This document shows, piece after piece, positions 3,316 to 7,417 of a DNA stretch of 53,493 bases. The position numbers and the translations under genes are program-made. Each line of letters begins with the position of its first letter. Positions within the stretch are counted from its first letter, which is position 1. This DNA comes from Methanoregula sp. (GTDB lineage Archaea > Halobacteriota > Methanomicrobia > Methanomicrobiales > Methanospirillaceae). Location of the stretch: the NCBI GenBank assembly GCA_028679185.1, contig JAJRBZ010000081.1, positions 1 to 53,493 of the forward strand, given 5' to 3'. Below the pieces are notes generated by a model. That model did no database searches. It saw nothing but the letters and a program-made list of their open reading frames with translations, and had not been told where the DNA came from.

Positions 3316-3918
3316 ATGGTTGATGCAAATGTGCCCGAAAAACCCGAAGGGGCAGAAGGACTTGAGAAAAAAGGTGTTGAGGAACTGGTACATTTACTTC
3401 GTGACAGCACTGATCCGATGGTGCGTCAATATGCTGCGTACCTTCTCGGCAAGGCAAAGAATCCCAGAGCCATCCAGCCTCTCATCGAGGCACTGGGTGA
3501 CTTTGACAAATCGGTCCGCGAACAGGCAACTCTGGCACTCTCAGCAATCGGCAAAGCAGCAATCGAGCCGCTGTCCGCTGTGATGAAAGAGCCTCAATGG
3601 GAAACCCGGTATCGCGCTGCTGAAGCACTGGGTAAAATTGCCGATGAAAAAGCGATCAAACCCCTCATCAAGGCTCTGAAGGATAACCGTGACCATGTGC
3701 GGTATATGGCAGCAAAGGGGCTGCGGGAAATAGGGAACTCAGAGGCCATAGAGCCAATGATAATCCTGCTGAAAGATGAGAACAGGTATGTCCGGATTAT
3801 GGCAGTCAGGGCACTTGGTGCTATTGGGGGTCACAATGCGAAGGAAGCACTCAAAAAAGCACTTGAATCAGAAAATGATGAAAAAGTAAAAGAAGCGATT
3901 AAAGAGGCGATGAAATAA
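3316..3918 (+). CDS. HEAT-repeat (PBS lyase-like) protein
   Basis: A protein of 200 residues made almost wholly of about five tandem helical repeats of about 31 residues with the pattern 'D..VR..AA.ALG.IG...AI.PL...L.D'. Such repeats form a curved solenoid that binds other proteins, and are abundant in methanogens. The start is the ATG at 3316 (MVDANVPEKPEG), just after an AT-rich promoter-like segment. No catalytic motif is present, so an adaptor role is likely. The gene stands alone, with a T-rich terminator directly behind it. Confidence 0.85.
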   Translation: MVDANVPEKPEGAEGLEKKGVEELVHLLRDSTDPMVRQYAAYLLGKAKNPRAIQPLIEALGDFDKSVREQATLALSAIGKAAIEPLSAVMKEPQWETRYRAAEALGKIADEKAIKPLIKALKDNRDHVRYMAAKGLREIGNSEAIEPMIILLKDENRYVRIMAVRALGAIGGHNAKEALKKALESENDEKVKEAIKEAMK

Positions 3919-4319: not shown

Positions 4320-4577
4320 TTACAGACAGAGAATACAATCAGGAACATGGTCGTAGCGATCCGGCTTGTCCAGAAACTCCCTGAATGTACCAGGAAGTAT
4401 ATGCACCTGCTGCAGCTGAACCGGGGAATTGTGAACTGTAAGCAGTAAATCTCCGTAATCACAAACCTCGCGAAAAGAGGGAATCCTGATGTCTGAAGTA
4501 TCATTCTGTTGGCTGTAATACTCAATGCAGCTGGAAGTATCCATGAAGATACAATCAGGGACAAAAGAGCCATCCAT
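4320..4577 (-). pseudogene. possible PIN-domain toxin remnant
   Basis: An 85-residue minus-strand frame that starts like a PIN nuclease: residues 9-20 read IFMDTSSCIEYY, matching the 'hFhDTs..ieyy' first strand with its acidic residue. The later part (LLTVHNSPVQLQQVHILP..FREFLDKPD) does not show the other conserved acidic residues, and the frame ends at about two-thirds of normal PIN length (about 130). It may be a truncated VapC-like gene, or chance. No antitoxin gene is visible next to it. Confidence 0.3.
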
Positions 4578-4787
4578 TTTGCCGTCGATGTTAATCGCTG
4601 CGATTAATCTTAATAGCAGTGATTAATAAATGACGAGCTCGGCAATTCTTATTCCGGATAAGAAGCTCACCAATGAAGATGGGCATAGTAATGAGCCGGA
4701 TCCGTTCAGGAAAAATACTCTCAAATAAATATTAATCTTTCCATATAATTGGCCCAATCTTTTAAATTATCGTACTGGATATATCCC

Positions 4788-5267
4788 ATGATTGCCGTGC
4801 TGTACGCAGATAATGAAGAGGGGCTGGACGAACCCGGGAAACTTTTTTTGGAAAAATCCGGTCAGGGTAGTACTGACCCAGAGGTATCGGCTGCAGAAGC
4901 ACTGCAAAAAATAAAATCATTGTCATTCAATACAATTGGCTCCTATTTCCAGATTCCGGGCATTGATTGGATTGCGTTTTTAAAAATAATCTGTCCTGAA
5001 TTTCATGAACTTCCCTTCGTCGTTTTCTTTTGTAAAACCAAGGAAGATGTTGCGATTGAAGCAATTGACATCGGAACCGATTTGTTCGTGGTACAGGTCT
5101 TTAACCTCACCAACTTCAGGGAAAAGGAAAAAATCCTTGAGCAATCGGAACACTGGTTTTCTGATATCAACAACTACCTCCCGGATGCAACCCGGGCAAT
5201 TAATCCGACCTGTATAGTTATCGCCAGTAATAAGGCAATTGATGAGATTACCGGAGTTAAAGCATGA
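4788..5267 (+). CDS. degenerate response-regulator receiver protein
   Basis: A protein of 159 residues from the ATG at 4788; an upstream TTG at 4749 only adds a non-homologous lead. It follows the single-domain CheY-like pattern of methanogens: first strand IAVLYADNEEG with one acidic residue (D8), helix EPGKLFLEKSG, and 'SAAEALQKIKSL'. The phospho-acceptor segment reads SYFQIPGIDW where functional relatives have SDYQMPGMDG, so the acceptor Asp is Tyr (about residue 53). An extra C-terminal part (about 100-159) replaces the usual end. It overlaps the next gene by four bases (ATGA), so the two are translationally coupled. It probably acts without phosphorylation, as a partner of the following kinase-like protein. 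Confidence 0.75.
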   Translation: MIAVLYADNEEGLDEPGKLFLEKSGQGSTDPEVSAAEALQKIKSLSFNTIGSYFQIPGIDWIAFLKIICPEFHELPFVVFFCKTKEDVAIEAIDIGTDLFVVQVFNLTNFREKEKILEQSEHWFSDINNYLPDATRAINPTCIVIASNKAIDEITGVKA

Positions 5268-7417
5268 GTACAAAGGGTCAACCTCTGCAAAAAACCAGAT
5301 CATTCTCATACATTCTTTTATTCTATATGGTTCTTCTCGTGCTTTGTATAGTCGGAATTATGGCTGTAAATAATTACATGTATACAAAGAACAATTTGGA
5401 ACGTGAATCATACCTCCTCCAGGTCCAGACCGAACAAAATATCATTGAGGCGATGCGGCTAAAGAACGGTGTCTGGAATTTCTATGACAAAACCCTTAAC
5501 AACCAGATGAAAGAGGGATTACTTCTTGTTTTACAGGAATATAACCGGACCGGTAGTGACCCCGGCCGCATGGATCTTGCCGCAGTAAAAACCTCCCTCG
5601 GGAAAAATTATGATATTTATATAATCAATGAATCCGGCGTCATAATCGAGACGACATATGCACCGGAACTCGGTCAGGATTTTAAGCGTGTCCTGTATTT
5701 TTATGAGTATCTCACAAAAATCAGAAATTCAGAGGGTTTTTTCGCTGATCATATAGTAAGGGATAAACTGGGTGAGGGCATGATGAGAAAATTTGCTTAT
5801 ATGCCTACACCAGACCACCGGTATATACTTGAGCTCGGCTTTGCCAGTGATGCGTTTGATGAATTAACTTTTCAATTAGCTGATGAGGCTAAAATTGAAC
5901 AGATCGTTTCAGTTAATCCCTATGTTTTGGAAAATTTCACGATATATAATACTATGGGAAGACAGATAAACAACAATGAACTTCCCGATAAATCCGTGCA
6001 GGCATACCTGAGTGAAGTCATTAAAAACCGAAGAACCCTTGAAGTTTCTGATCCAGAAAATGCACTGACAATCCGGTATCTCTTTGTCGATTTAAAATTT
6101 GATGAATACGGTTCAGATTCAAGCAGGATTGTGGAACTCACATATAATAAGGAATCAATCCAGGCTGCCCTGTTTAATCTGGTCCTTTTTCATCTCCTTA
6201 TTGGTTTAATCACCATCGGCATCGGGTGCGCAATAGCATTTGTTCTCTCAGAGAGGGTAACCCGGCCAATAAAACAGATTGTTCGGGATGTGAATATTAT
6301 TGCATCCGGTGATCTTGAACATCGCATCGGTTCGACACAGAGTACAGAGTTTACTATTCTTGAAAACAGCACAAACATGATGGTGGATTCGCTCAAACTT
6401 GCTGTTCAGTACATTAAGGATGGCGAAATTCTCCAGAAGGAGATGATCGATCAACTGCCGGTTGCAGTTTTTATGAAAAGTGTAAAGGATGGCAAATATA
6501 CGTTCTGGAATAAAACAAGTGAACGGATTTTTGATCTGCCTGCATCCGAAGTAATTGGCAGGACCGACCATGAGTTGTTTTCACAGGAAGTGGTTTCTAT
6601 TATAAATCAGGAGGATAAGGAAGCATGTCTCAATCATATATATATAACCAATAAAAAAATTGTAAACAAATACCTGGGCGAGCGCATCCTCCACCTGATC
6701 GTTGTCCCGATTTTGGATTCGAAAAACAATCTCAAATATATACTCGGGATTTGTGAGGATTTCACCGACGAGACACTCAACATGAAAATTGGGCTCCTGT
6801 TCAGCATTACTAGGACGGATGTTCTCAATCAGCTGTCGATTATTATGACTTTCCTGGAGCGGGCCCAGCTGAAGATGTCCCGCGAAGCGATGCAGACATT
6901 TTTTGACAAGACTGTCGAATCGGTCGAGTCTATCCGGAACCAGATGGCATTTGTCAGATCGCTCGAGGAGATTGGTATACTGTCTCAGAAGTGGCAATCA
7001 GTAAAAAAATCGTTTGAGGATGCGGTCAGGTTAGCGTCTTTCTCCAATGTCGACATTCGTATGGAAATGGATGATATTGAACTTTATGCAGATCCTCTCC
7101 TCCCATGGATTTTTTATAATCTCCTGATAAATTCGATACGCCATGGGGATCACCAGCTGACAAAAATCCGGCTTTATACAAAAAAATCAGGAGAAAATCT
7201 CACCCTGATCTATGAGGATAACGGCAGCGGTATACCGGATAATGAAAAAGAGAAACTATTTGAATTCGGCTATGACAATGGAACCGGTTTTGGCTTGTTT
7301 CTTACCCGCGAGATTCTGGGATATTCAGGATTTACGATTATTGAAACAGGTGAACATGGAAAGGGTGAAAGGTTCGAGATTCTCATTCCAAAGGGTAAAT
7401 ACAGGAATCCCAGGTAA
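5264..7417 (+). CDS. membrane sensor histidine-kinase-like protein lacking the acceptor His
   Basis: A protein of 717 residues. Transmembrane helix 1 lies at about 15-37, an extracellular sensor region at about 38-300 and helix 2 at about 302-327. A HAMP linker (ERVTRPIKQIV, about 329-380), a PAS domain (about 390-500) and the kinase core follow. In the dimerisation helix, relatives carry 'SITRHD..NQL'; here it reads SITRTDVLNQL, with Thr518 (codon ACG at 6815-6817) in place of the phosphorylated His. The ATP-binding domain keeps its N box (NLLINSIRHG, N619/N623), G1 box (EDNGSGIP) and G2 box (GTGFGLFL). It could bind ATP but cannot autophosphorylate on the usual residue. It is the second gene of a two-gene operon with the degenerate receiver. 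Confidence 0.85.
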   Translation: MSTKGQPLQKTRSFSYILLFYMVLLVLCIVGIMAVNNYMYTKNNLERESYLLQVQTEQNIIEAMRLKNGVWNFYDKTLNNQMKEGLLLVLQEYNRTGSDPGRMDLAAVKTSLGKNYDIYIINESGVIIETTYAPELGQDFKRVLYFYEYLTKIRNSEGFFADHIVRDKLGEGMMRKFAYMPTPDHRYILELGFASDAFDELTFQLADEAKIEQIVSVNPYVLENFTIYNTMGRQINNNELPDKSVQAYLSEVIKNRRTLEVSDPENALTIRYLFVDLKFDEYGSDSSRIVELTYNKESIQAALFNLVLFHLLIGLITIGIGCAIAFVLSERVTRPIKQIVRDVNIIASGDLEHRIGSTQSTEFTILENSTNMMVDSLKLAVQYIKDGEILQKEMIDQLPVAVFMKSVKDGKYTFWNKTSERIFDLPASEVIGRTDHELFSQEVVSIINQEDKEACLNHIYITNKKIVNKYLGERILHLIVVPILDSKNNLKYILGICEDFTDETLNMKIGLLFSITRTDVLNQLSIIMTFLERAQLKMSREAMQTFFDKTVESVESIRNQMAFVRSLEEIGILSQKWQSVKKSFEDAVRLASFSNVDIRMEMDDIELYADPLLPWIFYNLLINSIRHGDHQLTKIRLYTKKSGENLTLIYEDNGSGIPDNEKEKLFEFGYDNGTGFGLFLTREILGYSGFTIIETGEHGKGERFEILIPKGKYRNPR

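Follow-up and report, generated by a model that had tools for sequence, protein, structure and literature searches.

A maintained orthogroup of putative histidine pseudokinases in a methanogen genus, with an incomplete catalytic set in every member

The window, by which we mean the whole 53,493-nucleotide stretch analysed, comes from the 2.1 Mb genome of a Methanoregula sp. (G000; contig JAJRBZ010000081.1). Its plus strand carries a gene for a putative membrane histidine pseudokinase of 717 residues, here called KIN (5264 to 7417). Directly upstream lies REC (4788 to 5267, plus strand; ATG at 4788, stop at 5265 to 5267), whose 159 residues comprise a decayed receiver and about the first 45 residues of a PAS domain. 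The initial annotation rightly described the two genes as overlapping by four bases (ATGA) and as open over their full length (717 and 159 aa). A Shine–Dalgarno-like GGAG within the REC frame (5253 to 5256, plus strand), 7 nt 5′ of the KIN ATG, is the putative ribosome site of KIN.

Upstream of REC, a block on the plus strand (4461 to 4635) aligns at 77% with a region of a related genome (G005) whose end lies 44 nt short of the KIN ATG there, and represents the ancestral upstream region of KIN. Within it are two tandem operator-like palindromes (TTAATCGCTGCGATTAA and TTAATAGCAGTGATTAA; 4591 to 4626), the first of which is also found upstream of KIN in G005. With four strand-wise matches against 0.14 expected, they look like an operator. 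An 85-aa ORF on the minus strand (4320 to 4577) has no Pfam family, and the matching G005 DNA appears to contain an early stop; this ORF could be a relic, or simply conserved upstream DNA that does not code for protein. A gene for a HEAT-repeat protein (3316 to 3918, plus strand) provides a syntenic landmark further upstream.

Pfam, an AlphaFold model and scans of orthologues together give KIN the layout TM, double-Cache-like sensor, TM, HAMP, PAS, DHp and HATPase_c. Pfam detects HATPase_c (E = 3.4e-13), PAS and, weakly, HAMP. Structures similar to the AlphaFold model (mean pLDDT 74.8) include PAS-histidine kinases and, matching over more of its length, chemoreceptors of the McpB/McpC type, which have Cache sensors; over the DHp the model is too weak for mapping conserved residues. 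As first reported, Thr518 (ACG, 6815 to 6817) occupies the phospho-His position of the SITR-x-D motif (SITRTDVLNQL), and the ATP-binding boxes expected of an active histidine kinase are intact: N (Asn623, 7130 to 7132), G1 (DNGSG, residues 652–656, 7217 to 7231) and G2 (GTGFG, residues 673–677, 7280 to 7294). DHp helix 1 also carries Asn522 (6827 to 6829) at the phosphatase-type His+4 position and the LERAQL motif (residues 531–536, 6854 to 6871), which is invariant across the orthogroup. The alignment shows no other His able to accept phosphate, a possibility raised by the initial annotation, within the KIN DHp. Near the transmitter just one His is conserved, H477 (6692 to 6694), which lies in the PAS domain and is invariant in 21/21 aligned orthologues.

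Same-genus searches gathered a KIN orthogroup of 25 members from one methanogen genus: the window copy, 21 further whole-gene single-frame copies, two split copies and one at a contig edge (G032). Whole frames are thus present in 22 genomes, and those aligned are 47–63% identical to KIN. A scan of 21 members recognises HATPase_c in every one and dCache_1, weakly, in two. A scan of genome contigs with KIN as query returned a single distant and uninformative match, in Paenibacillus. The two split copies, in G021 (L061 about 7450) and G006 (L062 about 5940), are interrupted by frameshifts within the PAS region, the latter adjoining a 17-nt tandem duplication; these splits may be real or assembly errors.

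Of 21 loci whose upstream sequence is long enough to read, 20 have the HEAT-repeat gene upstream of KIN (the exception is G027), usually with a DUF4349 gene beyond it. Because the HEAT-repeat gene is present in 23/23 good-quality genomes of the genus, including those without KIN, it is a landmark and can be ruled out as a specific KIN partner. Six of the 39 genus genomes, from two distant clades, have a gene for a 414-aa ankyrin-repeat protein, every time at the KIN locus between HEAT and KIN (G022, G008, G006, G019, G093 and G028; L057:4636-5880, L050:4945-6189, L077:8911-10143, L054:1-1104 and L062:7580-8822); in G008 it follows the HEAT gene on a different contig from KIN. G017 has a remnant of the gene at its KIN locus. 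The ankyrin-repeat gene is likely to be ancestral to the locus and to have been repeatedly lost, making its product a candidate KIN partner in the species that have it and not a general one.

At the phospho-His position the 25 orthologues have Thr (1, the window copy), Arg (3), Gln (2), Ser (8), Gly (1) or His (10). The suggestion that Thr might be fixed in an orthologous group can therefore be discarded. Nor is Thr518 a recent or single-genome mutation, because the sister orthologue (G031) and a deeper one (G005) both have Arg here. In no orthologue is His accompanied by an intact G2 box: ten have His only, eight G2 only and seven neither. In all ten His-keeping members the G2 box has lost its second Gly (KTWQG, GTVHG, TTMRG and similar), and all eight members with both G2 glycines lack His. 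G027 has lost the N-box Asn as well. By contrast, 72 of 75 paralogous kinases have the full catalytic set, compared with 0/25 KIN orthologues, and 73 of the 75 have the phospho-accepting His; these paralogues, from the same and related genomes, are the best search matches plus window-genome and outgroup paralogues, and are not a random sample. Elsewhere in the window genome, a kinase (L010, G000:C70:45346-45963) in which RHD is retained but the N-box Asn and G2 box (EKTLSL) are gone is a second candidate pseudokinase, unrelated to KIN. In another kinase-like transmitter (L011, G000:C94:67606-68235) ISKDHIQRTVD replaces the RHDxxNQ box and G2 is altered (HAGIG).

We rooted the KIN protein tree on five same-genus paralogues. 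The orthologues of G005, G034, G022 and G008 branch deepest, followed by those of the window genome and G031 and then by a 16-member clade containing all the His keepers. With this root, on which the counts depend, the His position requires at least four changes (five if His is never regained, counted by hand) and the G2 box two. A tree uniting the ten His-less members that lie outside the His-keeping clade is rejected by the AU test (p-AU 0.0004), which rules out a single ancestral loss of His. Taken together with the number of His changes, this indicates that inactivation recurred. The ancestor of the orthogroup was probably catalytic, since the HD-LNQL, N, G1 and G2 boxes are retained throughout the five outgroup paralogues. 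Thr518 may have arisen through Arg and not directly from His, because a single substitution separates its ACG codon from the Arg codon AGG, and the sister has Arg.

Codon models of the orthogroup give ω values of 0.067 for the DHp (computed without codon 518), 0.114 for the PAS, 0.135 for the sensor, 0.141 for the HAMP and about 0.156–0.157 for the CA domain, compared with 0.24 (DHp) and 0.21 (CA) in the active outgroup; synonymous sites are near saturation, and all these values are comparative only. Branch-length optimisation for the domain estimates was short, and a later profile reproduced the DHp and CA values. The DHp intervals at 2 log units of the profile likelihood, roughly 0.05–0.09 for the orthogroup and 0.16–0.34 for the outgroup, do not overlap. 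On the branch leading to the window copy alone, ω = 1 is rejected for the sensor, HAMP and CA domains, marginal for the DHp (2ΔlnL 3.6) and not rejected for the PAS (2.4). The purifying selection proposed as a check by the initial annotation is thus present in every domain of the KIN orthogroup (ω 0.07–0.16).

Nine transmitter positions (I527, E532, R533, Q535, F547, T550, N559, P614 and R615) are fixed or nearly fixed in the orthogroup (at least 21 of 22 members) and absent in the outgroup. E532, R533, Q535, F547, T550 and N559 are orthogroup-specific invariants, the first three of which belong to LERAQL and occur in no outgroup kinase. By gap-free count from the His, R533 corresponds to T275 of HK853, a residue named in PDB titles concerning rewired HK–RR interfaces. 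By these sequence measures the DHp is the most constrained part of the KIN orthogroup, and is more tightly constrained than in active relatives.

KIN therefore has the marks of a pseudokinase: the kinase fold is kept, the phospho-acceptor is lost and the gene is under purifying selection. Across the orthogroup, alignments and codon models indicate that no member has a complete catalytic set, that lineages have lost different parts of it and that the protein, the DHp foremost, is maintained. The strength of constraint on the DHp and its new invariant residues suggest that selection preserves a docking role without catalysis, resembling that of DivL. Our preferred reading, to which we assign a probability of roughly 0.6, is that KIN belongs to a maintained histidine-pseudokinase orthogroup whose DHp would dock a fixed partner without autophosphorylation. 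For the wider history we see slightly better than even chances that a genus-wide sensor lineage gave up autophosphorylation and then lost differing catalytic parts in different branches as the DHp came under tighter constraint, leaving an archaeal pseudokinase family that signals by docking alone.

Under the docking model, the extracytoplasmic Cache-like sensor would act via the HAMP and PAS domains to alter the conformation of the DHp four-helix bundle. The bundle would then dock its fixed partner, a response regulator or an active kinase, which we infer to be controlled allosterically by binding. In members whose CA boxes are retained, such as the window copy, bound nucleotide may modulate the conformation. 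REC would stand outside this mechanism as an accidental, decaying insertion that now acts as the translational leader of KIN.

Members that lack His but have intact ATP boxes might phosphorylate a partner His in trans. This raises the alternative that KIN proteins are half-active subunits that form heterodimers with another kinase, the members with ATP boxes phosphorylating the His of the partner and the members with His being phosphorylated by its CA domain. Such an arrangement would fit the mutual exclusion of the two halves across members and the recognisable HATPase_c in every member scanned. However, the seven members with neither half, together with the additional loss of the N-box Asn in G027, argue that keeping a half is not required, and none of the many possible partner kinases in the window genome is linked to KIN. 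We consider heterodimerization of this kind unlikely.

Slightly less probable again is that KIN is a phosphatase without kinase activity. In the window protein, T-D-V-L-N retains the Asp and Asn with which active kinases promote dephosphorylation of response regulators, Asp519 is invariant across the orthogroup, and the window copy has both Asn522 and intact ATP boxes. But position 522, which is Asn in 74/75 paralogues, is Asp or Glu in the other 24 of the 25 orthologues, so a phosphatase role fits the window copy alone and is not the shared function.

The initial annotation proposed that KIN and REC had jointly lost their phospho-acceptors and been repurposed as a phosphorylation-independent signalling pair. 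The loss in REC is real and goes further than was described. Tyr53 (TAT, 4944 to 4946) occupies the phospho-Asp position, at which all 40 aligned homologues have Asp. D8 is kept, but the active site otherwise shows D9N, D53Y, T81 replaced by F or C, and G61W, and an in-frame loss of about 14 residues at 5091 to 5096 (KGGDPRAQFAELAH in a homologue) has removed the catalytic Lys and part of α5. REC therefore lacks the acidic pair, acceptor Asp, Thr and Lys set of a phosphorylatable CheY-like receiver, and its Pfam receiver score (25.7) is under the cut-off (30.2). REC aligns to the first 158–159 residues of methanogen REC-(PAS)n-HK proteins, which are far longer receiver-PAS frames, and differs from them in the missing catalytic residues and 14-residue segment and in being cut within the PAS domain, where it stops at the KIN ATG. 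A degenerate receiver alone is ordinary, as up to 40% of receivers in archaeal REC-HK proteins may escape phosphorylation according to a census (PMC5847659). Given the near-universal His in the paralogues and the Asp in all REC homologues, the observation itself is more than chance.

Synteny and selection speak against a pair. REC occurs in the window genome alone, and a receiver gene like it is found beside no other KIN orthologue, so the conserved adjacency of a cognate two-component pair is absent, and G031 and G005 lack both His and REC, making the two losses separate events. Of 31 near-invariant sites, 14 are altered in REC, compared with a median of 0 and at most 5 in homologues, while its agreement in variable columns is ordinary. 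The REC branch has an ω of 0.61 against a background of 0.107 (2ΔlnL 24.7), with ω = 1 not rejected (2ΔlnL 1.84). Since selection on REC is relaxed, KIN is the sole gene of the two that seems repurposed; its frame is kept and selectively maintained with no canonical phospho-acceptor. In favour of the pair are the four-base overlap, the GGAG before the KIN ATG and the open REC frame, given that about 3 stops per 106 codons are expected if all divergence were neutral and none is observed (zero stops in 4.4% of neutral simulations, P 0.044; about 0.9%, 0.009, scaled to 159 codons). The open frame could mean either that part of the divergence is older than the truncation or that read-through into KIN is useful. 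The upstream block shared with G005 lies 628 nt from the KIN ATG in the window, REC included, compared with 44 nt in G005, which places the arrival of REC between the ancestral upstream region and the KIN ATG. REC appears to be a stray, decaying fragment of a truncated receiver-PAS gene; synteny and the selection tests rule it out as the partner of KIN, and we regard a repurposed pair as very improbable.

Equally improbable is that KIN itself is decaying into a pseudogene throughout the genus, because the PAS-region frameshifts in G021 and G006 and the repeated erosion of CA boxes are set against full-length frames in 22 genomes at 47–63% identity, low ω in every domain and a DHp constraint above that of active kinases.

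Few histidine pseudokinases have been described, and we found no report in the open-licence literature of an archaeal one, or of an archaeal orthogroup that retains the HATPase with lineage-specific routes of inactivation. Automatic annotation would label all KIN orthologues as active sensor kinases. The 25 orthologues, nearly all at one locus, constitute a natural experiment in which catalysis was lost by different routes, and their shared conserved remainder, the DHp helices with LERAQL, is a candidate functional core. The orthogroup makes roles of histidine kinases besides phosphorylation testable.

Among the closest known proteins are same-genus dCache-HAMP-(PAS)-HK paralogues (second copies in G001, G008, G012, G013 and G022), which share the sensor (42–48% identity) and DHp type of KIN. 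Unlike the KIN group they keep the His, the His+4 Asn and the N, G1 and G2 boxes, lack LERAQL and have a less constrained DHp. Archaeal 'nonenzymatic HK-like proteins', frequent in Methanomicrobia, are known with HisKA and no HATPase (PMC5847659). KIN resembles them as an archaeal kinase-like sensor predicted to lack kinase activity, but they keep the His and have no recognisable HATPase, whereas HATPase_c is present in every KIN-group member scanned. Bacterial pseudokinase versions of histidine kinases include DivL and ChrS (PMC9491836). DivL of Caulobacter, with Tyr550 in place of His, binds DivK~P and works without kinase or phosphatase activity (PMC4211667). KIN, an archaeal membrane sensor, is no DivL orthologue: DivL homologues have Tyr almost throughout, whereas the KIN orthogroup never does, its residue drifting among T, R, S, Q and G or staying His with G2 destroyed. 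Like DivL, however, KIN keeps PAS, DHp and CA domains under selection with the His replaced and autokinase activity not expected.
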